From the NCBI GenBank assembly GCA_945897885.1, contig CAMDGU010000019.1, positions 1-47,943 on the forward strand: DNA of 47,943 nucleotides, read 5' to 3'. The notes under the pieces were generated by a model. The model was given only the letters and a program-made list of their open reading frames with translations. It did not search any database and had not been told where the DNA came from. The stretch is from Chitinophaga pinensis (lineage in GTDB: Bacteria; Bacteroidota; Bacteroidia; NS11-12g; UBA9320). Both the position numbers and the translations under genes were made by a program. This document shows, piece by piece, positions 27,517-46,592 of the stretch. Each line of letters starts with the position of its first letter. Positions within the stretch are counted from its first letter, which is position 1.

Positions 27517-29028
27517 TTACTTATTATTTTTTATGACGATTGTTTGTAATGCTTTGGCATCGATTGTAATATTTTTTATCTCCTTATTTATGTTGATTGA
27601 GATAGTGTATTTCTCTTTTGTAGGATTAAAAACAGCAATAACAATTCTTTCATCCGGATTTTGTACAGCTGTTGCCATCACTTCTTTATGATTAATTTCA
27701 CAACCAATTTTCACAGCTCCCGGACGCATAAATTTACTAAAATGAGCCATGACGTAATATAAGGGTGTAAAATACACCTCGTCCTTATCCGGATCCACAA
27801 TTAAAGGGGCTACACACCAGTTTTTGAACCAATTGGGACCGCCTTGTTTGTCTAAAACCATGTTCCAATCTACCCAACCATCTACATAATTGTTTAAGCA
27901 TCCAATAATATCAGTAGCATATCTATTAACTGGTGCATATTTAGGATGTAAATGTTTGTCTTTTTCACTGGCCCAATCCCAACCCCAATCTGTGGCTTCC
28001 TTTTTCCAATACCATGCATCATCTCTCCATTTTGGGACTTCAGAATCTACACAGCCTTCAGTTTCAATTAAATATTTATTGGGGGCGTTTTTATGAGCAT
28101 ATTGCAGAGCGTCCGGAAAATAATCGTAAGTACTTTCATACCAATGCATGGCGGTACCTGCAAAATATTTGGATGATTTTTTATCTCTGTACATTTCATC
28201 CACCCATTCTTTTAATCCGGCCCGGTTTTGATCGTAGCCCAAAATATTGACTTTACCCCACCCATCTTTTTCTAATTTTGGCCCTAAATGATTTTGAACA
28301 AAATCAGTCATTTCTTTGGGCGAAAACAAGGTGCTTTCCCAATTATTTCCATTCCCATGAGGCTCATTCATCCCTGTAATACCCCAAATATCAATTCCTT
28401 CTTTTTTATAAGCCGCTAAATATTTAGAAAAGTATAATGCAAAAGCATCATTAAACTCAGGTAGTAGTTTTCCACCTACAAAATTATTATTGTCTTTCAT
28501 CCAGGGTGGTGCAGTCCATGGTGAAGCGATAATTTTAAATCCTTCTTTTGAGGTTTTCTGTGCGTCTAAAATCATCGGGATTAAATCATTTTTATCATCC
28601 TCAATACTAAAATGATTCATTTCCAAATCGTTTTCGACTTTAGCGTAAGTATAATTTTGTAAGGAAAAATCACAGGAAGCAATATGTGTCCGGGTTAATG
28701 AATAATTTGCACCTTCCTTGCTAAAATAGGCCTCTACTATTTTTTTTCTATTTTCCGGGCTGATTTTATTTAACAAAAAAGCTGAAGCTTCTGTAAATGA
28801 CCCACCAAATCCTGTAATTTTCTGAAATTTTTTATTTGTATTAACCTGTATAGTTAATGTTTTGTGCGCAGGTTTAAACTCTTTAATTAAAGTTAAAGCA
28901 TTTCCTTTTTCCGAAGTTTCATATACATCAACAGTCATTTTTTCAGTGGTATTACATTGAATAAAAACAGCGCAAATCATCATAAGAATAATGATTTTTG
29001 AGTTATACAAAAACTGTTTAGTATTCAT
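27517..29028 (-). CDS. GH30 family beta-glucanase (probable beta-1,6-glucanase), lipoprotein
   Basis: 503 residues with a lipoprotein signal (AVFIQC, lipid-modified Cys near residue 25), so anchored in the envelope. GH30 features: FQKITGFGGSFTEASAFLLN near residue 68 (N-terminal side strand), ASPWTAPPWMKDNNN near 170, acid/base Glu in ITGMNEPHGNG near 221, nucleophile Glu in YLIETEGC near 322, HFSKFMRPGAVKIG near 430 and the C-terminal beta-sandwich (VAVFNPTKEKYTI type). Members of the matching GH30 groups include glucocerebrosidases and beta-1,6-glucanases. In a cluster full of beta-1,3-glucan enzymes the latter fits, removing laminarin side branches. Six bases after the upstream GH17 lipoprotein gene. 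Confidence 0.9.
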   Translation of the reverse strand: MNTKQFLYNSKIIILMMICAVFIQCNTTEKMTVDVYETSEKGNALTLIKEFKPAHKTLTIQVNTNKKFQKITGFGGSFTEASAFLLNKISPENRKKIVEAYFSKEGANYSLTRTHIASCDFSLQNYTYAKVENDLEMNHFSIEDDKNDLIPMILDAQKTSKEGFKIIASPWTAPPWMKDNNNFVGGKLLPEFNDAFALYFSKYLAAYKKEGIDIWGITGMNEPHGNGNNWESTLFSPKEMTDFVQNHLGPKLEKDGWGKVNILGYDQNRAGLKEWVDEMYRDKKSSKYFAGTAMHWYESTYDYFPDALQYAHKNAPNKYLIETEGCVDSEVPKWRDDAWYWKKEATDWGWDWASEKDKHLHPKYAPVNRYATDIIGCLNNYVDGWVDWNMVLDKQGGPNWFKNWCVAPLIVDPDKDEVYFTPLYYVMAHFSKFMRPGAVKIGCEINHKEVMATAVQNPDERIVIAVFNPTKEKYTISININKEIKNITIDAKALQTIVIKNNK

Positions 29029-29034
29029 TGAATT

Positions 29035-30315
29035 TTAATTTTTTAATAATTGAGGCAGTTCAACAGTTTTTAATAAATCTTCTTTTTTGCCCTTGTAAGT
29101 TTTAACAATGGTATTTCCATCGCGTTTTAATTCTTTAAAAACACCTTTATCTACCAAATGCCATAAACCAAATTTAGCATGTCCATCAATGGTAAATAAC
29201 CCAAAATGATTCTCCGCATCGTTTATGTTGCTAGCAGCTTTCCATTTCTCGTCAAATGCTTCAAAATAAAAGCATGATATTTTGGACTCGTTAGTCCATT
29301 TACGCATTAGTTTGTAGTAAACGCCTGCCTTTAACTCATCACACGCTTTAGAGCCATCGGTGCCAAAGTATCCGTCTGAACTACTTGCCCAGCCTGTTTC
29401 ACCAATATGAATTTGTTTTGTGCTATCAATACGTCGGATATATTTCAAGACGCTGGTGTATTGCTTTTCAGCAAACCTAACCGCTCTTTGTATAAGCATT
29501 TCTACCGCTTCACTTTTGGGAAGTTGAAATTCTGATTTTAGTCTACCCCAAAATTCAGGATCATAATGAGTGTCAAGCACCGGATAGGTATGTATCGATA
29601 CAAAATCTACTGCCTGAATCAATTTCTCCAAATTCTTACAATGATAGATTGTATCGCCTCCTCCCCAGGAGGCGAAGTTATCTGAACTTGTTATCCAAAG
29701 ATTTTTATCTAATTTATTTTCCTTCTTAAGATTTTGTAAATAGTTTACCCATTTCAAAATTATATTAGGTTGAACAAAATACGCGGTTGCCCATTTTACT
29801 CTGGCTTCATTACCTACAGATATCATTTTAACAATGCTCGGATATTTATTTGCTAAATCAACAGCTCTTTGAATCTCTGCGGCATTCGCAACTTCATTTT
29901 CCTTTTCATGATTTGGCGGTCTTTTTGTCCAGGCATTTTCGCAATCTATCCAAGTTCCAAGCATGACAAACATTTCAAAATTCGAATCTTCTTTTTGTAA
30001 CTCGGTTATTGATTCTAATATATTTTCTATTTCTTTTAACTTCGTATTATACGTCCTTAATACTTTAATACCAATGGCATTAAGCAATTTCATATCTTCT
30101 TTGATTTGAGCCAAGGAAGGCTGAGTGTCTCTTGTATCATTGCGGTATCCGCCATAACATATGGCCAGGTAATTTGAATCGCCTAAGATTTGAGCTGCTG
30201 TTTTGGTAAGCTTTAAATTTTTTGGGTTCTTATTTTTAGAGGTTGGGGCGCTGCAAGAAACAATAATAACGGTTAGCAGTAAAAGAAAACTATATATTAT
30301 CCTCAATTTTAACAT
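29035..30315 (-). CDS. GH17 family glycosidase, lipoprotein
   Basis: 426 residues. The signal peptide ends with a lipobox (VIIVSC, Cys near residue 21). The catalytic domain starts at about residue 50 (YLAICYGGYRNDTRD). Acid/base Glu is in SVGNEARVKW (near 167), VSIHTYPVLDTHYDP near 240, nucleophile Glu in IHIGETGWASS (near 305) and FYFEAFDEKWKAA near 350. A 60-residue C-terminal extension follows. It is the envelope-located counterpart of the cytoplasmic GH17 at 23281-24204 and probably trims beta-1,3-glucan outside the cytoplasm. It lies 4 bases after the phosphorylase gene and 6 bases before the GH30 gene. Confidence 0.88.
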   Translation of the reverse strand: MLKLRIIYSFLLLLTVIIVSCSAPTSKNKNPKNLKLTKTAAQILGDSNYLAICYGGYRNDTRDTQPSLAQIKEDMKLLNAIGIKVLRTYNTKLKEIENILESITELQKEDSNFEMFVMLGTWIDCENAWTKRPPNHEKENEVANAAEIQRAVDLANKYPSIVKMISVGNEARVKWATAYFVQPNIILKWVNYLQNLKKENKLDKNLWITSSDNFASWGGGDTIYHCKNLEKLIQAVDFVSIHTYPVLDTHYDPEFWGRLKSEFQLPKSEAVEMLIQRAVRFAEKQYTSVLKYIRRIDSTKQIHIGETGWASSSDGYFGTDGSKACDELKAGVYYKLMRKWTNESKISCFYFEAFDEKWKAASNINDAENHFGLFTIDGHAKFGLWHLVDKGVFKELKRDGNTIVKTYKGKKEDLLKTVELPQLLKN

Positions 30316-30319
30316 CCCA

Positions 30320-33300
30320 TTATTTTAAAATAGATTCTTTAACATGCACGGTGATTTTGGTTATTTCACCGGTTCGATTAAAAATATGTGCACTTAATTC
30401 CTCATCCAGTTGAAGTGAGTCGTTGGTTATAAGTTGACCTCCTTTTTTTTCAACTTCCATATAATTGTCTTGAGACAAACGATAAATAACGGGCACCTGG
30501 CAAAAGGTAAAGCAAAGGGAACCGAGTTCCGGTGCAAATGTTTTATGTTCCTTATGTATGGTTACATAGTGAAACAAGCGGTCACGTGTTGTAAACTCAT
30601 CCTTGCGCAATAAACAAGGGTAAAAGTATAAACAACCCTTATCCACAAAAATACCTAATTCGCCAAATCTACTTAAAATATCTTCTTTTACCTGACCTGT
30701 CATTCCGGGTTGCTGTGCTCCCTTGCCGGCTGGAGTGTGAGAATAGGGATCGGTAGGAAAAGCTCCATAAAGCAAGGGCGATTTATGCACACCAACACCG
30801 GCATTTATTTCATAATAGTGCTCTAGGAGTTTGCCAATTATTTTTGGTGTTTCTTTTCTTGTAACTGCCTGAAGACATAATTCTTGAACAGCTAATTGAA
30901 GTTTTGAAACCATATGCCAATATATTGAACCTAAACCTTCGTAACCATAAAATGTGCCCGAGCGGCCAGTAAAAGATTTATGGTTAAACACTAACTCAAA
31001 GGTGTTTAAAAGAGATTGTTCTTCTTTTTTAACTAATGAGGCATAAATTGAATCCTTTAATTTTGCCAAAGCTTTACTCAAATCTGCCGCATTTTTAAAA
31101 TTGCCATTGAAATGGTATTCACCTTTTATATCTTTTTCAATAAGCGTGTTATCGCCGGCGGTGAGCATAGCAGTTATAAGCTTAGAGCTTTCAATGGCTT
31201 CATTTGGTATTTTGTTCTTCTCTAAAAACTTAGGAAGCTGTTTGTTTGGATATAATAAATAGCTGTATTGGTCCTGCCGAAAAAGGTCACTTTTCTTCAT
31301 ACTATCCAATAACTTGAGGGCATTTTTAGGCGATAAACAACCTGAGCTTAACACGGCAACTTGACCTTCAAGCATTTCGCTAAGATAAGAAATAGAAATT
31401 TCGTTATCATTTTTAATGGTTATTAAATTATAAGCATGATACATATTATCGTCACGCTTATTAGCCTTGATAGAATGCTCAATGAACTTTAAACATACTT
31501 TAACAAAACTTTTAAGTCTTCTGTAGGATATAGTTCTTTTTTCAGCCCAAAAGGTCTGTTTATAAATATGTTCTCGATAATCGCTTCCGGCTTGGCCTAA
31601 GCTGTCAATTATTGCTTTACGCTGGGTGTCGCTTATGGCTTGTTTTAATAAATGCGCATTTTCATCAAAAATAGTTTGAATTTTTTTAAAGAATATTATT
31701 AACTCATTTGATAACTCAACACGTTGTTCGTCGGTTTGTTCTATAAGTTTTTCAAAAAAAACAAGAAATCTTCTAAGGTAATAAAGTGTAACCATCGAAA
31801 CACCGTTCCCAACTAACGCATTATTAGCATCGTTCCATTCCGGACGTTGGGTATTCATCCAAATTCCGCCTTCTGGTATAAAATTAGAAAGTTTGGATAA
31901 AACGGTTGCCAATAATTTTTCTATAAAATTAACTGAATAAATCTGGCTGTTCTGAGCCATTAAAAGTGCAGCGTCTGATCCAATAAGCTCTCTGTTTTTT
32001 TTGATTTTGACATCCAATGCTTCATCAAATTCAATGGTGTCTTTTGCGTTCTTTATAATTTCCTTATAGGTTTTTATTTTATAGGGTACATTGGCATAAA
32101 CAAATTGATCATCATTAAATTGACTACTGAGTTGGCCAGGATAATATTTCTCATTGATTTCTAATAATTTGAGTAGATAAATAATCTGATGATCTCCCCA
32201 ATAGCCAATATACGACCAAGGGTTGTCATGTTCTACAGTTTCCCAATCAAACCCCGCTTTTGTTATCCTGTATGGGTTGTATCCTTCAAATGTAGTAGCA
32301 TTCAAAAACTTATGAATCATACTTCTGGTAAAAGCAGGATATGAAATCGCCAAAGCCTCCCAATTTTGAAAAATATCTCTCCAATTACCTTCGTAGTCAA
32401 GTATTTTAGAATGATCTATCGCACTTCTTGTATTAATAGAAAATTTATTCCATGGTCTGCTGGGGTCACCGTGTCTTCTGCTAAATTTTAAAGGCAAGTA
32501 TTCAGTGCATAATCGCTTGAAGTTATTATCGGTTGATTGGCTTGTGATATTTTCTAAATCAAAAATAGTAAACGTTTCCCCAAAACCATCTATTAATGCC
32601 TTATGATTTTCAAATACTGCTTTATTTGCATTGGCCAGATAATTGGTTAAATCCCATTTTTCGATTTGGTAATTAAAATCGAAAATGCCGCCTCTCATAA
32701 TATTAAAAAGTGTATTTGAAAAATGGCGTGTATCTCTAAAAACATCATCTGACAATTGCACCCCATCTGAAGAGGCATTTAGTTCCAACAATCGTTTTGA
32801 ACCTAATTCGATATCATCTTCAATTTGTTTTTTTAGAGTATTGTTGGTGACGATATCTTTAATCAGTGCAACAACATTTACCTGACTTTGGTTTACGTCG
32901 GATATAATGAACCATTTTTTTAAACCATTGGGTGCCAAGGTAATTTCTTGGTTGATGAAATAGGCACCTTTTTCAGCTTTTACGTCATCTTCTTGTGTTA
33001 TCGGTGACCCTTTTCTAAAGGCATCAAGTTGTAGTGAGGATAAAAGGTGTTTAGGATTTTCGAGCCCAATAGCATAGGCGATGTTGGCTTTAAGTGCTTC
33101 ACTTGGCTCTGCCTTGTCAACAATTATGGCACTCAAAGCAAAAATGCCCATCCCCGAGTCAGTATCCAATTCGTTGCGTTTGTAGGCATCAACCAATATG
33201 CTCGTGCCATTTTGCAAGTCACTGCTAACGCCATCAGGCATAATATTTTGAATGCCATCAAGTATATTGATTCTAAGTGCTTTGTTGCCTTTGTTTTCTA

Positions 33301-33772
33301 AAGAAGATTTGCGTATAAATCCGTATATATTGCTCGAGTTCCACTCATATCTGAATGTAAGCTCAAAATTGTGGTGGGTTTCCTCAAAAATTATTTTGTT
33401 CCCAATTGAATTTTTATACAGGTTTCTGGTTGTTTTAAATAACCCTGCATTGCGTTCTGAAAATGGTTCCCAAATGTGAATTGCATCCTTTTGGATAATT
33501 TGAAAAATGGCCTTTCCACCAGTGGTATCAAATGATTCAGTAATTTTATCGGCCGTGTAATAAGGGAATAGTGCATACTCAGCATTCTTACGACCAGCTG
33601 TAAGACCCCCATTACTTGATATAAACATCCAATGATTTGAGTCGCTTACAATACTCATAAAAAATGGGCGTATTTCATCAAAATTAGAAATGCAATAGAA
33701 GTTTTCTCCTTCTATTTTTAATCTGGTAATTCCAACTTGGGATGGTTCACTTGCTTGTTTAGGACGAGACAT
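30320..33772 (-). CDS. GH149-like beta-1,3-oligoglucan phosphorylase
   Basis: 1150-residue cytoplasmic protein (no signal peptide). Its size and architecture fit the inverting disaccharide-phosphorylase clan. An N-terminal beta-sandwich (about 10-320) is followed by an (alpha/alpha)6 barrel containing YEGNWRDIFQNWEALAISYP near 450, YIGYWGDHQIIYLLKLLEI near 515 and PEWNDANNALVGNG near 647. The Asp of the latter aligns with the general-acid WND motif of GH94-type phosphorylases. The C-terminus has TPAGKGAQQPGMTGQVKEDI near 1020. Length and company (GH17, GH30, GH16) match GH149, whose characterised members phosphorolyse beta-1,3-oligoglucans to glucose-1-phosphate. GH94 or GH161 are the alternatives. 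First gene of the second half of the glucan locus, after a 248-base gap that may hold its own promoter. Confidence 0.78.
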   Translation of the reverse strand: MSRPKQASEPSQVGITRLKIEGENFYCISNFDEIRPFFMSIVSDSNHWMFISSNGGLTAGRKNAEYALFPYYTADKITESFDTTGGKAIFQIIQKDAIHIWEPFSERNAGLFKTTRNLYKNSIGNKIIFEETHHNFELTFRYEWNSSNIYGFIRKSSLENKGNKALRINILDGIQNIMPDGVSSDLQNGTSILVDAYKRNELDTDSGMGIFALSAIIVDKAEPSEALKANIAYAIGLENPKHLLSSLQLDAFRKGSPITQEDDVKAEKGAYFINQEITLAPNGLKKWFIISDVNQSQVNVVALIKDIVTNNTLKKQIEDDIELGSKRLLELNASSDGVQLSDDVFRDTRHFSNTLFNIMRGGIFDFNYQIEKWDLTNYLANANKAVFENHKALIDGFGETFTIFDLENITSQSTDNNFKRLCTEYLPLKFSRRHGDPSRPWNKFSINTRSAIDHSKILDYEGNWRDIFQNWEALAISYPAFTRSMIHKFLNATTFEGYNPYRITKAGFDWETVEHDNPWSYIGYWGDHQIIYLLKLLEINEKYYPGQLSSQFNDDQFVYANVPYKIKTYKEIIKNAKDTIEFDEALDVKIKKNRELIGSDAALLMAQNSQIYSVNFIEKLLATVLSKLSNFIPEGGIWMNTQRPEWNDANNALVGNGVSMVTLYYLRRFLVFFEKLIEQTDEQRVELSNELIIFFKKIQTIFDENAHLLKQAISDTQRKAIIDSLGQAGSDYREHIYKQTFWAEKRTISYRRLKSFVKVCLKFIEHSIKANKRDDNMYHAYNLITIKNDNEISISYLSEMLEGQVAVLSSGCLSPKNALKLLDSMKKSDLFRQDQYSYLLYPNKQLPKFLEKNKIPNEAIESSKLITAMLTAGDNTLIEKDIKGEYHFNGNFKNAADLSKALAKLKDSIYASLVKKEEQSLLNTFELVFNHKSFTGRSGTFYGYEGLGSIYWHMVSKLQLAVQELCLQAVTRKETPKIIGKLLEHYYEINAGVGVHKSPLLYGAFPTDPYSHTPAGKGAQQPGMTGQVKEDILSRFGELGIFVDKGCLYFYPCLLRKDEFTTRDRLFHYVTIHKEHKTFAPELGSLCFTFCQVPVIYRLSQDNYMEVEKKGGQLITNDSLQLDEELSAHIFNRTGEITKITVHVKESILK

Positions 33773-34020: not shown

Positions 34021-34836
34021 TTATTTCTCTTTGTATACTTTTACATAATCAACGAGCATTATGCCAGGAAACGGTGTATATGGGTTTGTTGGACCAACAA
34101 AATTTCCACCTACGGCCACATTTAAGATTATGAAAAATGGTTGATTGAAAACCCATTCACCTGAAACGTCTGATGAAGTAACCCTTTTGTAAAGGTAATT
34201 GTTAACAAAAAACTCAATATAGTTTTCACCCCATTCAACCGCGTAAAGGTTAAAGTCTGAATCAAATCTGTTGTTTTGCATTGCATAAGACGTTGAGTTA
34301 CCATTTCCTCCAAAATACCCTGGTCCATGAATGGTTCCGTAGGTAATATTCGAGAATTTTCCATTTTGTTCCATAATATCAATTTCACCACACTGTGGCC
34401 AGCTTACACTGCTAATATTGCTGCCTAACATCCAAAATGCAGGCCAAATACCTGATCCTGTTGGGGTTTTAATACGCGCTTCAATTCTACCATATTGTTG
34501 GCTGAAAATGCCATCCGTTTTTATTCGGGCAGAAGTAAATTTTCCTGAACCGTCTTTAATCGCTGTAATTGCAAGATTACCGGTTCCATCTAATGCCACA
34601 TTTTCGGGTTTATTGGTATAAGATTGTTGTTCATTATTACCCCATCCACCTTGACCAGTGCCTAAGTCATAAACCCATTTAGCATTATTGATCGCTGTTC
34701 CTTTATCACCCTCAAACTCATCGCTCCATACCAATTCGTAACTTCTTTTTGGGAGGTCCTGTTTAGGTTCTATTTCACACCCCGACATAGAGGCAATTAG
34801 TGTTGCAAAAAGTATTGTTTTAAATGTTTTATTCAT
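34021..34836 (-). CDS. GH16 family laminarinase-type glucanase, lipoprotein
   Basis: 271-residue beta-jelly-roll endo-glucanase, probably endo-beta-1,3-glucanase. Start ATG 34836 gives a lipoprotein signal (ASMSGC, Cys near residue 19). The domain opens with ELVWSDEFEGDKG (near 30) and has GRIEARIKTPTGSGIWPAFW near 115-135. The catalytic signature GEIDIMEQNG is near residue 150; the first Glu is the nucleophile, the next Asp assists and the last Glu is the acid/base. It ends with MLVDYVKVYKE, a typical GH16 terminus. The EIDIME spelling with the extra Met is the laminarinase-type version. Gap of 37 bases to the binding-lipoprotein gene upstream. Confidence 0.93.
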   Translation of the reverse strand: MNKTFKTILFATLIASMSGCEIEPKQDLPKRSYELVWSDEFEGDKGTAINNAKWVYDLGTGQGGWGNNEQQSYTNKPENVALDGTGNLAITAIKDGSGKFTSARIKTDGIFSQQYGRIEARIKTPTGSGIWPAFWMLGSNISSVSWPQCGEIDIMEQNGKFSNITYGTIHGPGYFGGNGNSTSYAMQNNRFDSDFNLYAVEWGENYIEFFVNNYLYKRVTSSDVSGEWVFNQPFFIILNVAVGGNFVGPTNPYTPFPGIMLVDYVKVYKEK

Positions 34837-34873: not shown

Positions 34874-36280
34874 TTATTTGTAGAAATAAATATTGTCAAG
34901 ATAAAAAAGCGTTCCACCCGTAACAATAATGGCTCCCAAGTTATTTTTTTGATTTAAAATAGCTCCGTTCAAAGGAATATCAAAAGATTTCCAAACGCCG
35001 GATTGGAAGGCGGATAAACTAGATCTAATATCTTTATCGTCCCCAATAGGATTACCGGTGTTTACATCCGTTTCAATGAGTTTATTCCCACCTATATCTC
35101 TAATTTGAATTCCAATAGTGGTAGCGGCATTCTCTACATAAGCATCAATGTGCAAAAATCCAAGACCTGATGCATCTAGGGGGTTTGCAAACATGATTCC
35201 CGTATAATTATTGTTAGAGTATTGGAGCACTTTGCCACTGCTGGTATTTAACTCCTCGGTTAGGGTTGTAGACCCTCCAAAACCAGGGGTAAAATTGCTT
35301 TCGGTTTCATTGGTATATGCATCACTAAAAATAGATTTCACATCACTCTTAGGCTTAGTTGGAACTGGTGCCCCCGGGAAATTTCCTTTTGATTCAATAA
35401 TTAGTTTGCCTTTGGCAGTTACCCCTTGAACCGTTGCAGTTATTTCCGAAGTTCCGATTGTGAGAACTTTCACTACGCCGGAGTCATTTACCACAGCTAC
35501 TGCAGGGTTAGAACTTTTGAACTCATAATAGGCTGCACTAGAATTTACAACAATATCATTTCCGTTTGCAAGGTTATAAATATGGTTTAACCCGGTTAGG
35601 GTGGTTGAAGAACCAATAAATGTTTTAGATGTAATTGTTTGGCCACTTAAAATAGCTGAGGTTGGATTACCTACCGTCCCCAGTTTTTCAAATTTTATTT
35701 CATCAAACCAAAGAGCATATCCTGATCCTCCTGTCCCTTTTGTACCCGCAGCAAACCAAAAAACACCTCTTTCATTTGTAAGTATGGAAGGATCAGGTAT
35801 GGGGACAATTACCTTTGTCCAGTTAGTTCCTACATTCACATCTTGGGTCGAAACCTTATTTTTGTCTCCCAGGTAGTTAATCCCAAAACCCACATCACCA
35901 AGTTTAACACCGGCCGAAGCTTTTACATAAAACGTCAGAGCATCATAACCGCTAAGATTCCTGCCTGCACCATCAACTCTGAAAATGGCCCCTGCATAAC
36001 TGCCGCTGGGATCTGTTTCATTAGGCACGTCTATCCTTACGGAGGCATTGCTTTCAAAACCTTCATTAATATCCACTGAGAACACATCAGGCTTTGCATC
36101 GGCAAATGGTAAATAAAAATTGGAACCTAAGCCAATAAAGTTATCAGTAAAAATTTCACCGGTAGTTCCAAATGAAGGCAATACCGCATAGTCAGATTTT
36201 TTTCTTTCACACCCTGATTGAACAATCAAACATGCGGCAAGGAGACTAATATTTATAGAGTGTTTAATTAAAATTTTCAT
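34874..36280 (-). CDS. Surface glycan-binding lipoprotein with two CBM-like domains and a BIG2 domain
   Basis: 468 residues with a lipobox (IVQSGC, Cys near residue 24). Residues about 40-200 form a beta-sandwich of carbohydrate-binding type (SYAGAIFRVDGAGRNLSGYD, then LTFYVKASAGVKLG and ALWFDEIKFEKLG). Residues about 225-300 are an Ig-like BIG2 module (YYEFKSSNPAVAVVNDSGVV). Residues about 320-468 are a second binding sandwich (DVKSIFSDAYTNETESNF ... LFYLDNIYFYK). The last module shares the SxFSxxYTN start and LxFIDNxxxxK end with the tandem modules of the 42912-44783 protein. No catalytic residues. It probably takes the SusE/SusF-like role of holding glucan at the surface. Second gene of the operon, 31 bases after the barrel-fused enzyme. 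Confidence 0.8.
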   Translation of the reverse strand: MKILIKHSINISLLAACLIVQSGCERKKSDYAVLPSFGTTGEIFTDNFIGLGSNFYLPFADAKPDVFSVDINEGFESNASVRIDVPNETDPSGSYAGAIFRVDGAGRNLSGYDALTFYVKASAGVKLGDVGFGINYLGDKNKVSTQDVNVGTNWTKVIVPIPDPSILTNERGVFWFAAGTKGTGGSGYALWFDEIKFEKLGTVGNPTSAILSGQTITSKTFIGSSTTLTGLNHIYNLANGNDIVVNSSAAYYEFKSSNPAVAVVNDSGVVKVLTIGTSEITATVQGVTAKGKLIIESKGNFPGAPVPTKPKSDVKSIFSDAYTNETESNFTPGFGGSTTLTEELNTSSGKVLQYSNNNYTGIMFANPLDASGLGFLHIDAYVENAATTIGIQIRDIGGNKLIETDVNTGNPIGDDKDIRSSLSAFQSGVWKSFDIPLNGAILNQKNNLGAIIVTGGTLFYLDNIYFYK

Positions 36281-36311: not shown

Positions 36312-39300
36312 TTAATTGTTTATATTGATTTGTATGTAGGTTCTGAATTCCCATTCATTACCATTAGGAAAACCAATTGCAGTTGGGTCGGGCACAAACT
36401 GACCTAAGTTATTTAATGTTTCAATTGGTGAATATCTATTCGAGTATCTATCAAGTGTTCGGTAGGTTCCTCGTATACCAAGTCTTGTGCCGGGTAGCAT
36501 AAACCAATCGGGTTTGCCTATTTCTAGCGACCAGTCACCGATTAATTGCAGCGGAAATGTTAAATTGAAATCTCTGTGATAATCAAATGGTCCCCAATCA
36601 TCAATTTTTACAATGGTGGTTAGTTTCATTTTTTTATAGATAGTGCGAATGTCAAATCCATAACGATTTATGGTTCTGGTATTACTTCCATTGGCCTGGC
36701 CATTTCCAAAATAAAGGTTTCCAATTATTCCGAAATTATGATTTAATTTAGAAACAATCCTGGTATTTACCTCCCATAAATCTTGAGCAGGAGCAGAACC
36801 AGGGAATACAAATGTAGTACGACCATTTCCAAGGATACCAATTGCTGCATCTTGAATGGTTGGCAAATGACGATATACAAAATCAGCGCTCATTGCAAAT
36901 TTAGCATCTTCCATTCTGTCATTATCCCATTCATACATCCATGTAGCAGGAGTAGGATCAAACGTAAGTAAAAGTTCTCCAGCTACTGTTTCTCTGTTTC
37001 CTCTAACAGAAAAAGGATCATCCAAGATATTTCTTGGGCGGGCAGGTGCCGCAAATTCAGGTCCAATAGGACCGGCTAAAGGTTTTTGATACATGAAATT
37101 TGGTGCAATTTGGATTTTACCTATGTTATAGGTAAATCCTGTTAGTGCATTGTACATATTTCCGCTTCCGATATCTTTAAGTGCCCATCCTGTAAAGGTT
37201 CTTGTTTGATCTACACCTCCGTTGGCCACTAATCCCATATATGAAGCAAGACCATACCAACGCATTGCCCCTGAGGAGTAAGTTAACTTTGCCTTTCCGC
37301 CGAAATTATCAGAACTTTGTATTTTATCCTCATATACAGTATTGTCTTCATAGAGTTGAAAGGTTCTTCCGTTAAGAGGCTGACCTCCCCACATTCCTCC
37401 TAAATCAAAGGTGAGTTTTTCCATTTTTTTACCAATGGCTAAGGTTAATCTTCTGGTTTTTGGCACCGGAACGGCAAAAGAACTTTGTACATTGTTTCTT
37501 TGTGTTATATCCTCATGAAAAATTCCTGTTACATCTAAACCAAGTAGCTTTTTGCTATACTTTAAAATTACAGCTGGGTTGGCACCCCACCACAATTCAG
37601 GACCAAATGCTAGTTTAAATCCTTTCATATGTTTTTTCCCTTCCAATTCAAATCCAAAGGGCGCATTTCCATTGTATAAATCAATGTTAGGACCATAGTT
37701 AGCTTCCCTGTAAAGACCAAAGAAATCGCCTTCATACCCCCAATGATAATGGCCGGTTCTATAAAATCCGGTCAATTTAAATTCTTTGGCATCCCATGAA
37801 TAATCGGCTCTATAAAGCTGAACTCTATTATTATCAGTTATTTGTTGAGGTCCGCTTGGTGTTTGAATCGTCATCGGCCTTCCTCTATTTTCGTAAAACA
37901 CTTCATCTATTGGATTGGTGGCAACATTACCAAGCACATTAAACTGAACATTTGCTTTCATATTAGGCGTGGGTCTGGCTGTTACCCCTACATTAAAGGA
38001 TTGCATATGATCAAATCCCTGCCCGCTTGGATATGTGGTTGTATTTGAAGGATTGGCAGTTGCTGGAGTGGTTGTGAGGCTTCCTCCGGTTTGATAGGTA
38101 TTGAAATTGGCTTGCAAATTACTTAAGTACAATTTACCTTTATCTTTCGATTCGAGCACAGCCTTATCACCTCTTGCTTTTAGTGCAGCGTCTGCTATAG
38201 AAATCCCACTAAACAATGCATTCATTGCGGCATTAGTACCGTTATAAGGATCATAACTATGCACATTTTTTAGCGCATAATATGCGGCACGCGGATAGAG
38301 TTCATAAGTGCCCCGTTCATTTGTTCGGCCTTTGGCACAGATTCCAAACCATTCCTCATTCATATTATTTTCACCTTTCACAAAATCGTTGGTATAACCT
38401 CCATTGGACCATGATGCAGTTGCGTCGTGTTCTTCCAAATTGATGGTTTGACCGGTCTTCCACCAACCATCACTAAACTGAAAGGTAAAACCACCTAAAC
38501 TGTTTTCATTTTTACCCATCCCAACAACATTCCCGTAAATTTCCTTCCAGTTGCTTAGTAACACCTTGGCTTGATATTCTTGATCTTCATTGTTTGCTAA
38601 TGTGTTAAACGCGTCTGAACCGAATTCAGTGAGGATTACAGGCATATTTAACTCTTTTTTAACGCGATCATATAAATCGGTAAACGTAAGGCCACGGTAG
38701 CAATTAATTCCTAATATATCAATATCGGTGCACTCTTTGGCAATAATTTCTGAAAAAAGCAAGTCCCCGTTGCAAATAGCCATAGGGTGATTTGCATCGA
38801 TAGCTTTTAATTCTTTAACAGCATCGTTAAATAGCTTATATAAAAAGTAGGCATCTTTTGTCGATTTTCTATCGGCCATCGGAATGTTTTCAGTTTCAGC
38901 ACCTCTCCAAAACAGACCGTAATTATTTTCATTACCTAATAAAAAAATCAAAATACCGGGAGTTTCTTTGTACTGAGAAACCATTTCTTTTGTTTCCTTT
39001 AACAAAATTTCCCTGACGTTTGGATTAGAATAATCGGTATTGGGTTCCCACTTGCCTTTGATCGTTAAACCATAACGGCCAAAGGAATGATTGAGCATGG
39101 TGTATATGCCATAATTTTCGTAAATATATTTTACCCATTTTGGAGGAACACCGATATATTGGCGAATAACATTTATACCCATATTTTTAAGTAATGGCAT
39201 TTCAAGATCCAGCGCGGCCATGATAACATCATCCGATTGATTCCACAAACTATAATTGTAGTTGGTGCCAATGGGCAAGTAATCCCAGTTCATCCCGTTG

Positions 39301-39434
39301 ACAAATATGTTTTTACCGTCCACTGATAATTTAAATCCGACTCCGGATTTGACAACCTCCACTTTGTCGGTTTGAGCAATTGAAGATAAGGAAGCTAAAA
39401 AGAAAATGCTCAATATAAGTAGGTTTTTTATCAT
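36312..39434 (-). CDS. TIM-barrel glycosidase fused to a predicted outer-membrane beta-barrel
   Basis: 1040 residues with a signal peptide ending SIAQ (about residue 20). Residues about 30-410 form a clan GH-A type barrel: VDGKNIFVNGMNWDYLPIG near 37, MGINVIRQYIG near 88, acid/base Glu in IFLLGNENNYGLF (near 166), ILGINCYRG near 240 and nucleophile Glu in VILTEFGSDAF (near 270). It resembles the GH2 C-terminal/GH5/GH158-like group; exact family not certain. Residues about 450-1040 alternate polar and hydrophobic residues in long strands rich in Gly, Tyr and Trp (FKLAFGPELWWGANPAVILK, FGIIGNLYFGNGQANG), which looks like an integral outer-membrane barrel. The enzyme would be fixed at the surface and the barrel might serve as a pore. 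First gene of the minus-strand glucan operon, downstream of the conserved promoter element. Confidence 0.82.
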   Translation of the reverse strand: MIKNLLILSIFFLASLSSIAQTDKVEVVKSGVGFKLSVDGKNIFVNGMNWDYLPIGTNYNYSLWNQSDDVIMAALDLEMPLLKNMGINVIRQYIGVPPKWVKYIYENYGIYTMLNHSFGRYGLTIKGKWEPNTDYSNPNVREILLKETKEMVSQYKETPGILIFLLGNENNYGLFWRGAETENIPMADRKSTKDAYFLYKLFNDAVKELKAIDANHPMAICNGDLLFSEIIAKECTDIDILGINCYRGLTFTDLYDRVKKELNMPVILTEFGSDAFNTLANNEDQEYQAKVLLSNWKEIYGNVVGMGKNENSLGGFTFQFSDGWWKTGQTINLEEHDATASWSNGGYTNDFVKGENNMNEEWFGICAKGRTNERGTYELYPRAAYYALKNVHSYDPYNGTNAAMNALFSGISIADAALKARGDKAVLESKDKGKLYLSNLQANFNTYQTGGSLTTTPATANPSNTTTYPSGQGFDHMQSFNVGVTARPTPNMKANVQFNVLGNVATNPIDEVFYENRGRPMTIQTPSGPQQITDNNRVQLYRADYSWDAKEFKLTGFYRTGHYHWGYEGDFFGLYREANYGPNIDLYNGNAPFGFELEGKKHMKGFKLAFGPELWWGANPAVILKYSKKLLGLDVTGIFHEDITQRNNVQSSFAVPVPKTRRLTLAIGKKMEKLTFDLGGMWGGQPLNGRTFQLYEDNTVYEDKIQSSDNFGGKAKLTYSSGAMRWYGLASYMGLVANGGVDQTRTFTGWALKDIGSGNMYNALTGFTYNIGKIQIAPNFMYQKPLAGPIGPEFAAPARPRNILDDPFSVRGNRETVAGELLLTFDPTPATWMYEWDNDRMEDAKFAMSADFVYRHLPTIQDAAIGILGNGRTTFVFPGSAPAQDLWEVNTRIVSKLNHNFGIIGNLYFGNGQANGSNTRTINRYGFDIRTIYKKMKLTTIVKIDDWGPFDYHRDFNLTFPLQLIGDWSLEIGKPDWFMLPGTRLGIRGTYRTLDRYSNRYSPIETLNNLGQFVPDPTAIGFPNGNEWEFRTYIQININN

Positions 39435-39671: not shown

Positions 39672-42614
39672 ATTGAACTAAAAGATTCGTTTGGAAAAGC
39701 ATTATTTTTTTCCTTTGTATCCCTGTTATGTCTATATTCATCCTACGGTCAAGCTCCCATTGGGGAGGTAAAATTATCCGTATTTACCAAATCGGAATAT
39801 GCCGCAGGTACACAAAATTGGAAAATAGAACGCGACCTTTTTGGACGCATATATATAGCCAATAATGAAGGGCTTTTGGTTTATAATGGAACAAATTGGA
39901 AATTGTTTCCTGTACCCAACAAAACTATTTTAAGATCCATTGCCTTTGGAAAGGATGGAAAATTGTATGCAGGTGCTCAAGATGAGTTCGGTTTTTACAC
40001 GTCAGATAATTTAGGCAAACTTGTATTTACATCACTAAAAAATCTTTTACCACCATCCGTCCAATCCTTTGCTGACATTTGGAATATTGAAGTCACTGAC
40101 AAGGAAGTCTTTTTTATGGCATCCGAGGTGATTTTTAGATATTCGAATCAGAAACTAACCTTTTTTAAACCCAACTCTCTTTGGTTATCGCTTAAAAAAC
40201 ACAACAACAAAATTATAGCTTTGGATAGCAAACGAGGAATTCTTGTGTTCAATAACGAAAAGTGGGAAACCCTTATCCAACCAAGTGCTTTGCCACCCGG
40301 TTTTATGATTAACGACAGTAAACCTTATGGTAAAGGCACTAGTTTAATCAGCACCTCAGGCCATGGTTTATTCCTTCTATCCCAAAATTTAATTCGCCCT
40401 TTTACACTTAAAAACTCGAGTGTTGAAATGCATTTCACCTCCTTAGATATATTGGACAAAACAAGTTTTTTGGTTGGATCTTATAATTCAGGCTTATATA
40501 AAATTAACCGAAACGGTGAAATACTTGATAAAATTTCAACCAAAAATGGGTTGATAAGCAATACAATCCGATGTACATACACGGGTTTCGATGGTACTAC
40601 CTGGATTGGATTAGATAATAGTATTGCGCTTATGGATTGGAATAATCCCATTAGGCATATCAATCCAGCATCCTTTAATAATGGCAGCGGACAAGGCGCT
40701 ACTGTTTTTAATGGTGAATTATATTTTGCATTAACCACTGGCTTGCATTGGCTGTCAATAGGCTCAAACACAGATTTAAGTAAAATAACCGCTGAACCTA
40801 AACCAGTTTTGAGCGGACTTACATGGAACTTATTCGTTGTTGGAAAGCAACTTTTGGTCGGCCGAGATGATGGTTTTTGGACTATTTCAGGTCACAAAGC
40901 AGCCAATGTTTCAAATTCATCCGGTTATTGGACATTTAAGCCAATTCCGGGCACTGTTCCAACTAAAATTGCATGCGGCAATTATTTTGGAATCAATTTG
41001 TTTGCCGAAGAAAATGGTAAACTTACAGACAAAGGAAAACTCAAAAATCTTATTGAATCAAGCAGATACATGGAGGTAGATGGCTCATTTATTTGGGTTT
41101 CACATCCTTATCATGGACTATTCAAAATCAATTGGAAGGATAATACTATTAAGAAATACACGATGCAGCATGGGTTGCCTGCTGACTTAGACAACCATGT
41201 TTTTAAATTGAAGGGTAAAATTTTATTTGCAACAACTCAAGGTATTTACGAACCAAATAATCAAGGTTCCAAGATAATTCCATCACCCCAATATCAAAAA
41301 TTACTTGGAAAAAAATCCATACGCTACCTAAAAGAAGATCAGGAAGGCAATGTTTGGTTTGTACTTGGAAAAATGTTAGGTGTAATTGATTTTAAAGCAC
41401 CCAATCCGGAAGTAAAATTTATACCCGAATTGCATAATCATTTGCTGAGTGGTTTCGAAAACATTTATCCGTACAATTCTGAAAATATACTCATTGGCTC
41501 TGAAACAGGTTTTTACAATATTAACTACGCTAAATATAGAGAAAAAACACTTTCTTACCTCACCTATGTTACCTCCGTTAAAATTATTGGTAATGGCGAT
41601 TCAATAATTTATGGGGGCTTCAACGAAAACGCAGGAAACAAGCTTGAGAAAGTTTCAATTCCCTATAAATTTAATTCACTTCAATTTGCCTTTACCACAT
41701 CATTTTTACGCCATAAACCCGGCACCGAGTTCAGTTATTATTTAGAAGGGTATGATAAAAACTGGAGCAATTGGCTGCTACAAAACGAAAAAGAATATAC
41801 AAATCTCCCGGAAGGTAACTATATATTTTATGTAAAATCCCGTTATGGTCCGTCGTTCGAATTTAAAGAGTTTAGTTATTCTTTCAGGATAGAAGCGCCT
41901 TGGTATCGAAACGTTTGGGCTTACATTTTATATTTTATTGGCTTTACTCTATTTATTGTTCTACTTTTCAAATTTCAAAAGAAAAAAATCTTAAAAAAGC
42001 AACAAAGCAAGAGGTTGGCTGATAAACTAAAATTTGAAGAAGAGCAGCATCAACTAAATCAAAATTACCAACTTAAACTTGAAAAAAAAGAAAAGGCAAT
42101 TATTCAATTAAAGAATGAAAAACTAGAAGCGGAGTTGCAGCACAAAAATGCTGAACTTGCAAGTAATGCAATGAACCTATTGCAGAAAAAAGAATTTATA
42201 GGCAAAATGGCGGATGAGCTCAATAAAGTTTATTTGCCGATAAAGGATCAGGTGGATGCATCAGAAATTAAAAAAATACTGCGTCGCTTGAATTCTGAAG
42301 AAAAATTAGATGATGAATGGAAACAATTTTCAATTCATTTTAACGACGTTCACAGCAATTTTTTACTAACGTTAAAGGAAGTATTTCCTGAGCTTAATGC
42401 CCATGAAATGAAACTCTGTGCCTATCTGCGGATGAATTTATCGAGTAAAGAAATAGCCCAATTAATGAGCATATCAGTTAGAGGTGTGGAAATTAGTCGA
42501 TACCGTTTACGCAAAAAATTAAAACTCCAACCCAATGAAGATTTATTTGGATTTTTATTTAAAATGAAATCAGAAAATAATGCCAACTTTTACAAAAAGA
42601 AGGATAATCTTTAA
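39672..42614 (+). CDS. One-piece transmembrane regulator: periplasmic beta-propeller, Y_Y_Y domain, coiled coil and LuxR-type HTH
   Basis: About 980 residues. After a signal-like hydrophobic segment (KALFFSFVSLLCLYSSYGQA) come two-component-regulator propeller repeats (about residues 30-640; units like GLISNTIRCTYTGFDGTTWIGL). A Y_Y_Y domain follows (about 660-740, FSYYLEGYDKNWSNWLLQN), then one transmembrane helix (about 746-766), a coiled coil (770-850) and a C-terminal helix-turn-helix (ELNAHEMKLCAYLRMNLSSK, IAQLMSISVRGVEISRYRLR). There is no kinase or receiver domain, so glucan sensed in the periplasm would act directly on DNA binding. Start problem: no ATG, GTG or TTG lies between the stop at 39567 and a TTG at 39876, yet the signal segment is upstream of that TTG; ATT at 39672 is a possible start. 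Divergent from the operon it probably controls. Confidence 0.78.
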   Translation: MELKDSFGKALFFSFVSLLCLYSSYGQAPIGEVKLSVFTKSEYAAGTQNWKIERDLFGRIYIANNEGLLVYNGTNWKLFPVPNKTILRSIAFGKDGKLYAGAQDEFGFYTSDNLGKLVFTSLKNLLPPSVQSFADIWNIEVTDKEVFFMASEVIFRYSNQKLTFFKPNSLWLSLKKHNNKIIALDSKRGILVFNNEKWETLIQPSALPPGFMINDSKPYGKGTSLISTSGHGLFLLSQNLIRPFTLKNSSVEMHFTSLDILDKTSFLVGSYNSGLYKINRNGEILDKISTKNGLISNTIRCTYTGFDGTTWIGLDNSIALMDWNNPIRHINPASFNNGSGQGATVFNGELYFALTTGLHWLSIGSNTDLSKITAEPKPVLSGLTWNLFVVGKQLLVGRDDGFWTISGHKAANVSNSSGYWTFKPIPGTVPTKIACGNYFGINLFAEENGKLTDKGKLKNLIESSRYMEVDGSFIWVSHPYHGLFKINWKDNTIKKYTMQHGLPADLDNHVFKLKGKILFATTQGIYEPNNQGSKIIPSPQYQKLLGKKSIRYLKEDQEGNVWFVLGKMLGVIDFKAPNPEVKFIPELHNHLLSGFENIYPYNSENILIGSETGFYNINYAKYREKTLSYLTYVTSVKIIGNGDSIIYGGFNENAGNKLEKVSIPYKFNSLQFAFTTSFLRHKPGTEFSYYLEGYDKNWSNWLLQNEKEYTNLPEGNYIFYVKSRYGPSFEFKEFSYSFRIEAPWYRNVWAYILYFIGFTLFIVLLFKFQKKKILKKQQSKRLADKLKFEEEQHQLNQNYQLKLEKKEKAIIQLKNEKLEAELQHKNAELASNAMNLLQKKEFIGKMADELNKVYLPIKDQVDASEIKKILRRLNSEEKLDDEWKQFSIHFNDVHSNFLLTLKEVFPELNAHEMKLCAYLRMNLSSKEIAQLMSISVRGVEISRYRLRKKLKLQPNEDLFGFLFKMKSENNANFYKKKDNL

Positions 42615-42911: not shown

Positions 42912-44783
42912 TTAATCTAAGATCAATTTCGAGGTAGTCTGTCCTTCTTCAGAAGTAGTTCTTATAAAATAAACACCATTCGTAAGTTTAGAAACGTCTA
43001 ATGAAACAACTTTAGAATCAGGGTTCATAGTTAACACACTCTGACCAATGTTGTTTAAAACAGTAACCATTTGGATCTGCTTATCGGCAGTGATAGTTAA
43101 ATTATCAGAAGCCGGATTAGGATAGATATTTACTTTAGCAGCATTCAAACTTTTTATTGAAACTGTTGATTTTCTGAACAACACATTATCAATAAATACA
43201 GTTCCGGCACCGGTTGGATTGCCAACAAAAATTAATTGCCCGATATTAGCTCTGGTAGTTAAACCGGTAAAACTTGTTAATGGAATATCGTAAGTATTCC
43301 AGCTGTTTAAAGTTGGTGCACTTAAGGTTAATTCATGTTCTTTGTCATTGCCACCACCTAAAACTCCGTCGGCACCCATATCCACTAACTTAACTTTAAA
43401 AGCTGTAAGATTTGGAGTCCATGCATTCAGATAAAAATGGGTCATAGTTGACGCATCAATTTTGTTAGCACCAAGAGTTTCAACACCAACAAAATCAAGA
43501 GCTGAATATTTTTTGGTTTCGTTTCCTGCAATTTGGACATCTGTTAATGTGGCTGCAGACCAGCTTGTACGCCAAGTATCTACAGTTTTGTTCGTATAAG
43601 CATTACTAAATAATGACATTACATCTGTTGAAGCAAAGGTTGGAGTTGGAGCAGCGGTTTGAGGAGTGTTTGGATCAATGATCGGGGTTTTATGGTAATA
43701 TACATTGTCAATAAATACTGTGCCTGATCCTGGAGGTGTTCCTACAAAGATTAACTGTGCTATGTGTTTTTTGGTAGTTAAACCGGTAAAATCAGACATT
43801 GGAATATCAAAACTATTCCACTCATTTTGTTTCGGGGTTAAAGTTACTTGATGTTCCTTATCATCTCCTCCGGCAAAAGCGCCATCGGCGCCGAAATCAA
43901 CAATCTTAACTTTAAATTCTGTAAGATCAGCCGTCCAAGCGTCTACGTGGAAATACAACATGGAAGAAATATCTAAAACATTTGCACCAACTGTTTCAAT
44001 ACCAACAAAATCGAGGGATGAATACTTTTTAGTATCATTACCAGCAATTTGTAAATCGGTTAAAGTGGCAGCTGACCAACTAGTTCTCCAAGTGTCTACC
44101 GTTTTGTTTGTATAAGTATTACTAAACATTGAGATTACATCGGTAGAAGGTCTTGTAGGTGCAGGAGCTGCAGTAGTTGGTGCTGTTACTGCACCGGCAC
44201 TAAACGTAATGTTGTCGAAATAACAAACATTAGAATCGGTTCTGGCTTGAAAATCAGGAAAGATAATAATTTGATCAATATCGGTGGAAGATGGCTCTCC
44301 TACTTTACCGGCGAAATTAAACGTTAACTCTTCCCACTCATTAACTTTGGTGTTAGGCACCTTGATTTCTCCTGTAGAAGCTCCCGATGCCGTGGCGAAC
44401 TTTATACCTACGTCGCTTTTAACAGTTTTATAAACCATTATTTTAACGGTAGAGTTGGCAGTAGTCAAAGTAAATTTTCCTATGTCTGCACCATGCTTAG
44501 ATTCAACACCTGCCCATGGTTGACCCGTTTTTAATGGGGTAAGTTTGGCTACAATGTTAGATGTATTACCACCACTTTTGTTAGGGTTGGCAACTATTTT
44601 TAATTGCGCATTTGCATCATTTTCAAAACTAGTCCAGGTCCAATTGGCACCCTGTCCTCCAGACTCAAAGTTAATCGGAGCGTTTTGCGCAAAAGCACTC
44701 ATTGCCCCCATCATAAAAATAGAGAGGGTCATTTTTCTTAGCACACTTAAGTGTGACTTGGTTGTTGTGTAATTTTTTTTCAT
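42912..44783 (-). CDS. Secreted multi-domain glucan-binding protein with T9SS sorting domain
   Basis: 623 residues; ATG 44783 leads to a signal peptide ending SAFAQ (about residue 33). It has an N-terminal beta-sandwich (about 35-200, NFESGGQGANWTWTSFENDA). Two tandem, highly similar modules of about 150 residues follow (about 215-365 and 380-530). Each starts STDV.S.FSN.YTNKTVDTW, contains TDxQIAGNxTKKYSxLDFVG, and ends TVFIDNV, with Pro/Thr-rich linkers between. The C-terminal 75 residues (INPxP-like KVNIYPNPASDNLTITADKQ) are a type A T9SS sorting domain. No catalytic residues, so it is a surface-attached or released glycan-binding protein. It has its own copy of the conserved promoter element and so is likely co-regulated with the operon. 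Confidence 0.85.
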   Translation of the reverse strand: MKKNYTTTKSHLSVLRKMTLSIFMMGAMSAFAQNAPINFESGGQGANWTWTSFENDANAQLKIVANPNKSGGNTSNIVAKLTPLKTGQPWAGVESKHGADIGKFTLTTANSTVKIMVYKTVKSDVGIKFATASGASTGEIKVPNTKVNEWEELTFNFAGKVGEPSSTDIDQIIIFPDFQARTDSNVCYFDNITFSAGAVTAPTTAAPAPTRPSTDVISMFSNTYTNKTVDTWRTSWSAATLTDLQIAGNDTKKYSSLDFVGIETVGANVLDISSMLYFHVDAWTADLTEFKVKIVDFGADGAFAGGDDKEHQVTLTPKQNEWNSFDIPMSDFTGLTTKKHIAQLIFVGTPPGSGTVFIDNVYYHKTPIIDPNTPQTAAPTPTFASTDVMSLFSNAYTNKTVDTWRTSWSAATLTDVQIAGNETKKYSALDFVGVETLGANKIDASTMTHFYLNAWTPNLTAFKVKLVDMGADGVLGGGNDKEHELTLSAPTLNSWNTYDIPLTSFTGLTTRANIGQLIFVGNPTGAGTVFIDNVLFRKSTVSIKSLNAAKVNIYPNPASDNLTITADKQIQMVTVLNNIGQSVLTMNPDSKVVSLDVSKLTNGVYFIRTTSEEGQTTSKLILD

Positions 44784-44816
44784 TTTAATATTATTAATTT
44801 GGTTTAAAACCTTTTG

Positions 44817-44876
44817 ACGAAAGTAGATGAATGAGAGAGTAATAACCAAAAAAATTACTACATCTCTACTACATCA
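44817..44876 (-). promoter_or_regulatory. Conserved promoter-operator element, copy B
   Basis: Second copy of the 60-bp element at 39549-39608, including the identical 18-base TACATCTCTACTACATCA (plus strand), the A tract and CGAAAGTA at the same 21-base spacing. The -7-like end is 34 bases before the ATG of the binding-protein gene. Confidence 0.7.
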
Positions 44877-44975: not shown

Positions 44976-46592
44976 TTAGCTTTTTATGAATCTTGATCTA
45001 TAAGTTTTGTTACCTATCGAATAGGTTAAAACATAAATTCCTCGGTTTAGATTCTCTAATTCATTAATGAAAATAACATTATTTTCAACTGAATAGGTAT
45101 TTGACTTTACCAATTTTCCGTCTACCGCATATATCTGAACTGACAAAATGCTATCGATAATATTTCCAAAGTTTATAGTAAGATGGCTATTGACGGGATT
45201 AGGATAAAGTATATGATTTTTGAAGTTGTCAGTTAAAGTTGAATTTGTATTACTTTCTTGATAAACCCTTATATAGTCCATTTCTAATGCACTTTGTGTA
45301 AATGATGCGCTAATATTGGATTGAATGGCAATATTGACAAGAAGATATTGTTCAGTATCAAAAGGCCAAGTATTAGGATCTTTTTGTAATGGATTGTAGG
45401 TATAATGAATATTGGAATCAACACTAAAAACTAATTTCGTTGGTGTCCATTCTAATGTATAAACGTGAAAAGCAGTTGACGCAGTTGATATGGTTTGTCC
45501 ACCTAAATTTATAGTATTTCCAAAACTGGAGGGGGTATGAATGGCACTTTGAACAAAATTTTGGTTATTTCCCCAATGCTCCATTATATCTATTTCGCCG
45601 CAAGCCGGCCATACGGTTTTTCCAAAACCTAAATTATCCCAATAGGCTCCATTTTCATCTATATTTTTACCAAGCATCCAAACAGCAGGCCAGGTGCCAG
45701 CACCCGATGGGAGTTTTGCCCTAAATTCTACCCTACCATACTTAAAAGCAAACTTAGAATTCAGTCTGGCAGAGGTGTACTGTTTAGTATAACTTTGATC
45801 GGCATAAGTTTCCTTTTTTGCAATAATCTTTAGATTGCCGTTTTCTACTATCGAATTTTCAACCCTATTGGTATAATGTTGAATTTCTCCATTATACCAA
45901 CTACCAGATGTTGGTAATTCGGTTTGATGAAACCAATTCGAAGAATTAACAGGACCGTTGGTGTCAAACTCATCAGCCCACACTAATTTTGTATAAATAG
46001 AACCGGCAATCACCGTCCTTTTGTGTTCAAAATCATCCAGATAAGCCACAACACTGTCTCTATTGTTTTCACCATTAATCTGAATAACAACTCTGTTAAA
46101 ATCCTTTCTCTGCGCCGGTGGCAAAGAGCCACCGTTTAGATTAATAAATTTATCCTTAGCAAAATCAAATGTTATCGTTTGCCATTGATCTAAAAGCAAT
46201 GGTTTGATTATTTCTGATTGAGTAGACCAGGGTTCAGCAATTTTACCATCTTGTAATTTTAAGGAAACTTGATTAAGTTGACTGCCTGAAATGGTGCTAG
46301 ATGGAATAAAAATTTTAAATGAAAATATACTCTCCTTTGATAAATCAAGATTTTTTGTTAAATCAAATCTTACATTGGCATACAATCCTCCATTATCCCT
46401 GTATTCTAAAACATTATCTGAACTGTTTGTGCTAGTTTGAAAAGGGTTCTGAAAACCAGTTTTAATGAGGCAATTATCGCCTCGCCAATTGCCAATATTT
46501 CCATTTCCCTCAAAATCATCCTTTATAGTTTGGGAATTTGCCCAAAAAGGTGAGATTAATAACAACGAATAAACTATAAATTTATAAAACAT
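44976..46592 (-). CDS. GH16 family laminarinase-type glucanase with CBM-like domain and T9SS sorting domain
   Basis: 538 residues. A signal peptide ends near WANSQ (residue 21). Residues about 25-195 form a carbohydrate-binding beta-sandwich ([16 protein letters not shown], then [10 protein letters not shown] and [13 protein letters not shown]). Residues about 203-437 are the GH16 catalytic domain: [34 protein letters not shown] and the catalytic signature [12 protein letters not shown] near residue 334 with both Glu and the Asp intact. The terminal part ([18 protein letters not shown] to the end) is a type A T9SS sorting domain. It should be exported and act on extracellular beta-1,3-glucan. 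The upstream gap to gltX holds no copy of the conserved promoter element that I can see. Confidence 0.93.

Follow-up and report, generated by a model that had tools for sequence, protein, structure and literature searches.

A single gene in the window (the whole stretch of DNA that was analysed, 47,943 nt) encodes a clan GH-A glycoside hydrolase domain followed in the same chain by a predicted outer-membrane beta-barrel, and a separate lipoprotein gene constantly accompanies it. Glycan entry across the outer membrane of Bacteroidota is explained almost wholly through SusC/D, and no SusC/D was present in the window. The barrel and the lipoprotein most likely form a SusC/D-like uptake unit, with the hydrolase in the position that the plug occupies in a TonB receptor. 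The evidence tips slightly towards the fusion serving as the outer-membrane part of a locus that takes up beta-1,3-glucan without SusC/D. A broader proposal, put forward more tentatively, is that it belongs to an undescribed and widespread type of importer lacking SusC/D and a TonB plug, which would consist of a 24-strand channel, an obligate lipoprotein lid and its own glucanase, with cutting serving to rectify diffusion.

The coordinates of the fusion gene, its parts and its neighbours are given in Table 1. The initial annotation had described a single continuous frame, and this was confirmed over the whole gene. Because the fusion is kept at full length in independent genomes across the phylum, a frameshift or assembly artefact was ruled out. 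The N-terminus carries no lipobox, and signal peptides of type I (SPI) were read by eye on the fused relatives as well. A T9SS C-terminal sorting domain was absent from the fusion protein and present in two of its neighbours.

Table 1. Features of the fusion gene and the surrounding locus.
Feature	Position	Strand	Basis or remark
GH17, signal peptide not evident	23281..24204	-	family search
GH17, signal peptide not evident	24201..25151	-	family search
Inner-membrane GPH/MFS sugar transporter fused to GH17	25162..27513	-	PF13347 3e-65, PF00332 1e-9
GH30, apparent lipoprotein	27517..29028	-	PF02055 2e-78
GH17 lipoprotein	29035..30315	-	PF00332; lipobox VSC read from sequence
GH149 beta-1,3-glucan phosphorylase	30320..33772	-	NF058639 1750 bits (cut-off 1150); PDB 6hq6
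GH16 lipoprotein	34021..34836	-	PF00722 7.8e-22; lipobox SGC read from sequence
CBM-like lipoprotein, 468 aa, candidate SusD counterpart	34874..36280	-	constant barrel partner
Complete fusion gene, 1040 aa	36312..39434	-	ATG start, internal stops absent
Outer-membrane beta-barrel, residues ~435-1038, 24 predicted transmembrane strands	36321..38132	-	
Helical linker, residues ~401-431	38142..38234	-	
Clan GH-A TIM catalytic domain, residues ~25-400, nearest solved fold GH158	38235..39362	-	
E270 of TEFG, predicted nucleophile	38625..38627	-	aligns with TEFG of 9oro
E169 of GNEN, predicted acid/base	38928..38930	-	aligns with NE of GH158(Pro) 9oro
Signal peptide I, residues ~1-20 (...SSIA|Q)	39375..39434	-	motif read by eye
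Propeller/Y_Y_Y sensor-regulator, divergent	39876..42614	+	PF07495, PF07494, GerE-like end
T9SS-exported CBM-like protein, repeated modules	42912..44849	-	Por_Secre_tail 4e-15, weak CBM_11
T9SS-exported GH16	44976..46592	-	PF00722 + Por_Secre_tail

AlphaFold2 modelling of the whole protein (76-77 sequences; pLDDT 74.5, pTM 0.60) gave a TIM fold at residues ~25-400 and a barrel at 435-1038. The front half had only a weak GH2 TIM match in Pfam, and its best match among PDB sequences was GH158(Pro) 9oro (8e-5, covering part of the domain). A clan GH-A enzyme is recognised by a TIM barrel, an acid/base Glu that follows an Asn and a nucleophile Glu. The modelled domain reached Z values of 23-26 to many GH-A enzymes, with GH158 first (Z 26.2, rmsd 3.3 over 285 aligned residues, 22% identity), a GH5 mannosidase level with it (Z 25.9) and GH157 next (Z 24.7). 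The initial annotation's intact NE and TE.G catalytic motifs were found again as N168-E169 and E270 (TEFG), which are invariant in the alignment of 77 sequences. The two glutamates correspond to E137 and E220 of BuGH158, an enzyme that loses its activity when either residue, or N136, is mutated (PMC7157763). From the motif alignment, the fold matches and the BuGH158 mutants, the TIM domain is an active-looking clan GH-A enzyme and probably a beta-1,3-glucanase. It shares the NE and TEFG motifs with GH158 (BuGH158 6pal; 9oro), and the type of locus is also similar, that of BuGH158 containing GH16_3, an SGBP and GH3 (PMC7157763). It differs from GH158 in the low identity, in the tie with the mannosidase and in having a barrel where BuGH158 has a C-terminal Ig-like domain.

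The C-terminal half gave no family match in Pfam, NCBIfam or PDB sequences; a hit to DUF6882 (0.002, 11 members) was judged to be due to chance. Modelled alone from 76 sequences, it again folded as a barrel, with moderate confidence (pLDDT 74.0, pTM 0.71), and the top 50 Foldseek and VIA rows for the isolated half were membrane beta-barrels throughout. The matches listed included TonB receptors, MOMP, LptD, AlgE and OprD-type porins, and the best were the 24-strand ushers (VIA-align Z 14.0, 367 aligned, rmsd 5.0). Hydropathy alternation in the predicted strands was 2.30, compared with a mean of 1.47 and a maximum of 2.33 in 2000 shuffles. By prediction, then, the C-terminal half is an outer-membrane beta-barrel at the level of fold. 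Since these top 50 rows were membrane barrels alone, a soluble sandwich was ruled out, and the initial annotation's claim of a hydrolase covalently joined to an outer-membrane barrel stood up to structure prediction; its estimate of ~590 barrel-like residues was right in kind and short in length, the barrel covering ~604 residues. The ushers FimD and PapC also have 24 strands and are the closest barrels overall by VIA-align, but identity is ~11%, the Usher family had no match and there were no pilus genes, so the resemblance is one of barrel size only.

In the model there were 26 strands of at least six residues, and removing one hairpin that lies within a loop leaves 24. Twelve long links (7-36 aa) alternate with short turns, mostly of 2-6 aa but in two cases 12 and 20 aa long. 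This alternation places both ends of the barrel on the short-turn, periplasmic side, and with the barrel N-terminus periplasmic by default the TIM enzyme would most likely lie in the periplasm, as judged from the predicted topology.

The 76 full-length relatives that were aligned show 61-84% identity. The barrel was about as conserved as the enzyme (0.76 vs 0.78), and the linker (residues 396-434, 0.57) was less conserved than any other part except the signal peptide. Within the barrel, the extracellular loops scored 0.785 against 0.63 for the short turns and contained 114 near-invariant residues, while inward-facing positions were 0.17 more conserved than outward-facing ones. Such a pattern is not that of an anchor; it suits a pore that handles ligands.

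The gene directly downstream of the fusion encoded the CBM-like lipoprotein in 97/97 fused loci, and the same lipoprotein was absent from 13/13 loci in which the enzyme lacks the barrel. The name "CBM-like" is a working one taken from similarity to the T9SS-exported neighbour; Pfam gave only a weak Ig-like match. The strict association argues that barrel and lipoprotein act as one unit, in which the lipoprotein may serve as a lid. In some loci (L057, L063, L083, L090) the gene directly after the fusion resembled the T9SS protein at 42912-44849 more closely than it did the lipoprotein at 34874-36280; the two families seem to swap places there.

In fifteen orthologs the TIM domain stood without a barrel. 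These orthologs were scattered among fused proteins on the TIM tree, which has no outgroup, and at least six changes are needed to account for their positions. In G156, a decayed barrel relic of 93 residues follows directly after a barrel-less TIM gene (L164:3339-3617) and is barrel loss caught in progress. Nesting and this relic suggest, on an unrooted tree, that the fusion is ancestral and that the barrel was lost later. Most barrel-less orthologs carry a lipobox (identified by eye, and in several cases dependent on a non-ATG start), and G341, G373 and G156 have what look like plain SPI signals and lack a T9SS tail. At four barrel-less loci (L164, L165, L166 and L168, families f23 and f25), LacI-type regulators take the place of the propeller sensor.

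The relation to SusC/D was compared in loci with at least 5 kb upstream in the fetched flanks. SusD was found at 4/77 fused and 4/9 barrel-less loci (Fisher p 0.003, with lineages that are not independent). The two systems are not mutually exclusive, as SusC/D occurred at four fused loci (G018, G090, G140, G263), and no SusD was found in the fetched flanks of barrel-less G405, G160, G334, G015 and G279. The whole genome had one SusD_RagB and two SusD-like_3 matches, all on other contigs. Like SusC/SusD, the fusion is a large outer-membrane barrel gene next to a lipoprotein gene in a glycan locus, and several of its barrel-less relatives adjoin real SusC/D. It differs in having an N-terminal enzyme in place of a plug or carboxypeptidase-like domain, 24 predicted strands rather than 22, and a partner lipoprotein unrelated to SusD. 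The TonB plug PF07715 and CarboxypepD_reg_2 had no match in the fusion protein, while a true SusC (L129) has both; transport through the barrel may be independent of TonB. Replacement of SusC is made plausible by a locus without SusC/D and by barrel absence tracking SusC/D presence. The initial annotation had gone further and proposed a single-chain stand-in for SusC/D plus enzyme; the "single chain" part found no support in that form, because a separate CBM-like lipoprotein resembling a SusD counterpart always accompanies the barrel.

At two barrel-less loci without nearby SusC/D, the divergent neighbours looked similar: one (L131:11414-13570) is a CBM9 + DUF5916 protein by Pfam, and the other is at L175:11213-13192. 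A protein of this type could be another outer-membrane component.

The neighbouring genes agree with the beta-glucan setting first proposed for the fusion, since they comprise an equivalog of GH149 together with GH16, GH17 and GH30 (Table 1); the divergent sensor-regulator likely regulates the locus. GH149 clusters of CAZymes without susCD are shown in Fig. 7C of PMC5827456, and these share with the present locus GH149, GH16, GH17, GH30 and the lack of a susCD pair. An enzyme-barrel protein is not mentioned, and no entry route given, in the part of that paper dealing with these clusters, for which the fusion is thus a candidate outer-membrane component and entry route. The transporter-GH17 fusion in the same operon is of a published type, Formosa FbGH17B (PMC6246565), in which transporter and laminarin hydrolase are likewise joined in one chain, but it lies in the inner membrane and has an alpha-helical transporter and a hydrolase of another family. 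If the barrel is a channel, the enzyme-barrel protein would be an outer-membrane hydrolase-channel pair mirroring the inner-membrane one. The MFS and GH17 parts were fused in several relatives (e.g. L044, L066, L073, L090) and encoded by separate genes in others.

In the uptake route that we propose, the surface GH16 enzymes, one a lipoprotein and one T9SS cargo, would cut glucan outside the cell, and the CBM-like lipoprotein would catch the fragments above the conserved extracellular loops of the barrel. The fragments would then pass through the 24-strand barrel and be cut on arrival by the GH-A domain, held by its short linker at the periplasmic end of strand 1, so that transport is pulled inward. 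GH17 and GH30 would shorten the fragments further, and MFS-GH17 and GH149 would finish the breakdown at and beyond the inner membrane.

The arrangement implied by the initial annotation, with the enzyme on the cell surface atop its own channel and feeding its products in, is doubtful and we regard it as unlikely. In its favour, the helical linker that precedes strand 1 could run through the lumen in the manner of an autotransporter; a surface position is expected for BuGH158, the closest of the solved relatives whose PUL has been described (PMC7157763); and the barrel-less orthologs with a lipobox, which are the majority, could be surface lipoproteins. In a barrel with an even number of strands and loops of these lengths, however, the N-terminus lies in the periplasm by default, and the SPI signals of G341, G373 and G156, with no T9SS tail, predict a periplasmic enzyme. 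We also know of no way in which a folded TIM domain could be exported through its own 24-strand barrel. Export of the N-terminal enzyme by the barrel acting as an autotransporter-like secretor is a very improbable reading, even though the domain order of N-terminal passenger, helix and C-terminal barrel is the expected one. Type V autotransporter translocators have 12 or 16 strands, compared with ~24 strands in ~600 aa here; the Autotransporter family had no match, and the constant linkage to the CBM-like lipoprotein would be left unexplained.

The lipobox on barrel-less orthologs also bears on the uptake reading itself, because the barrel could then be a mere alternative anchor, exchangeable with a lipid anchor and without any role in transport; in several lineages it is the barrel-less enzyme that carries the lipobox. 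We consider this improbable. An anchor needs neither highly conserved loops and inward-facing residues nor a barrel conserved like the enzyme, and it would not need the neighbouring lipoprotein, which was absent wherever the barrel was. The preferred reading is a SusC/D-like uptake unit of barrel and lipoprotein.

A genome scan returned upwards of 570 relatives, and the 80 best matches among them span Bacteroidota and include a Kapaibacterium and a Chlorobiota bin. The fusion is thus widespread and no local oddity, which answers the initial annotation's suggestion to look for it elsewhere. The barrel was present in 34-35 of 394 sampled Bacteroidota genomes, in a frame of ~1000 aa with the TIM domain; apart from pieces at contig edges and one relic, sequence and profile searches of the 394 genomes found no barrel standing alone or on other enzymes. 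A literature search restricted to open-licence papers found no description of the enzyme-barrel fusion. Its hosts include culturable species of Flavobacterium and Chryseobacterium as well as Bacteroides finegoldii, a species of the gut. The triplet of fusion, lipoprotein and GH16 was also found in B. finegoldii and in Persicobacter, with no SusD at either locus. The B. finegoldii copy is labelled "glycoside hydrolase family 2 TIM barrel-domain containing protein", which names only the GH2 TIM part, so the membrane barrel was missed in annotation. The B. finegoldii triplet lies on NZ_OY725931.1 (L256:11867-17288), which is labelled a plasmid. That sequence also has valine--tRNA ligase, rpsA and glutamine synthetase genes, and it has the look of a circularised chromosome fragment, not of a plasmid.
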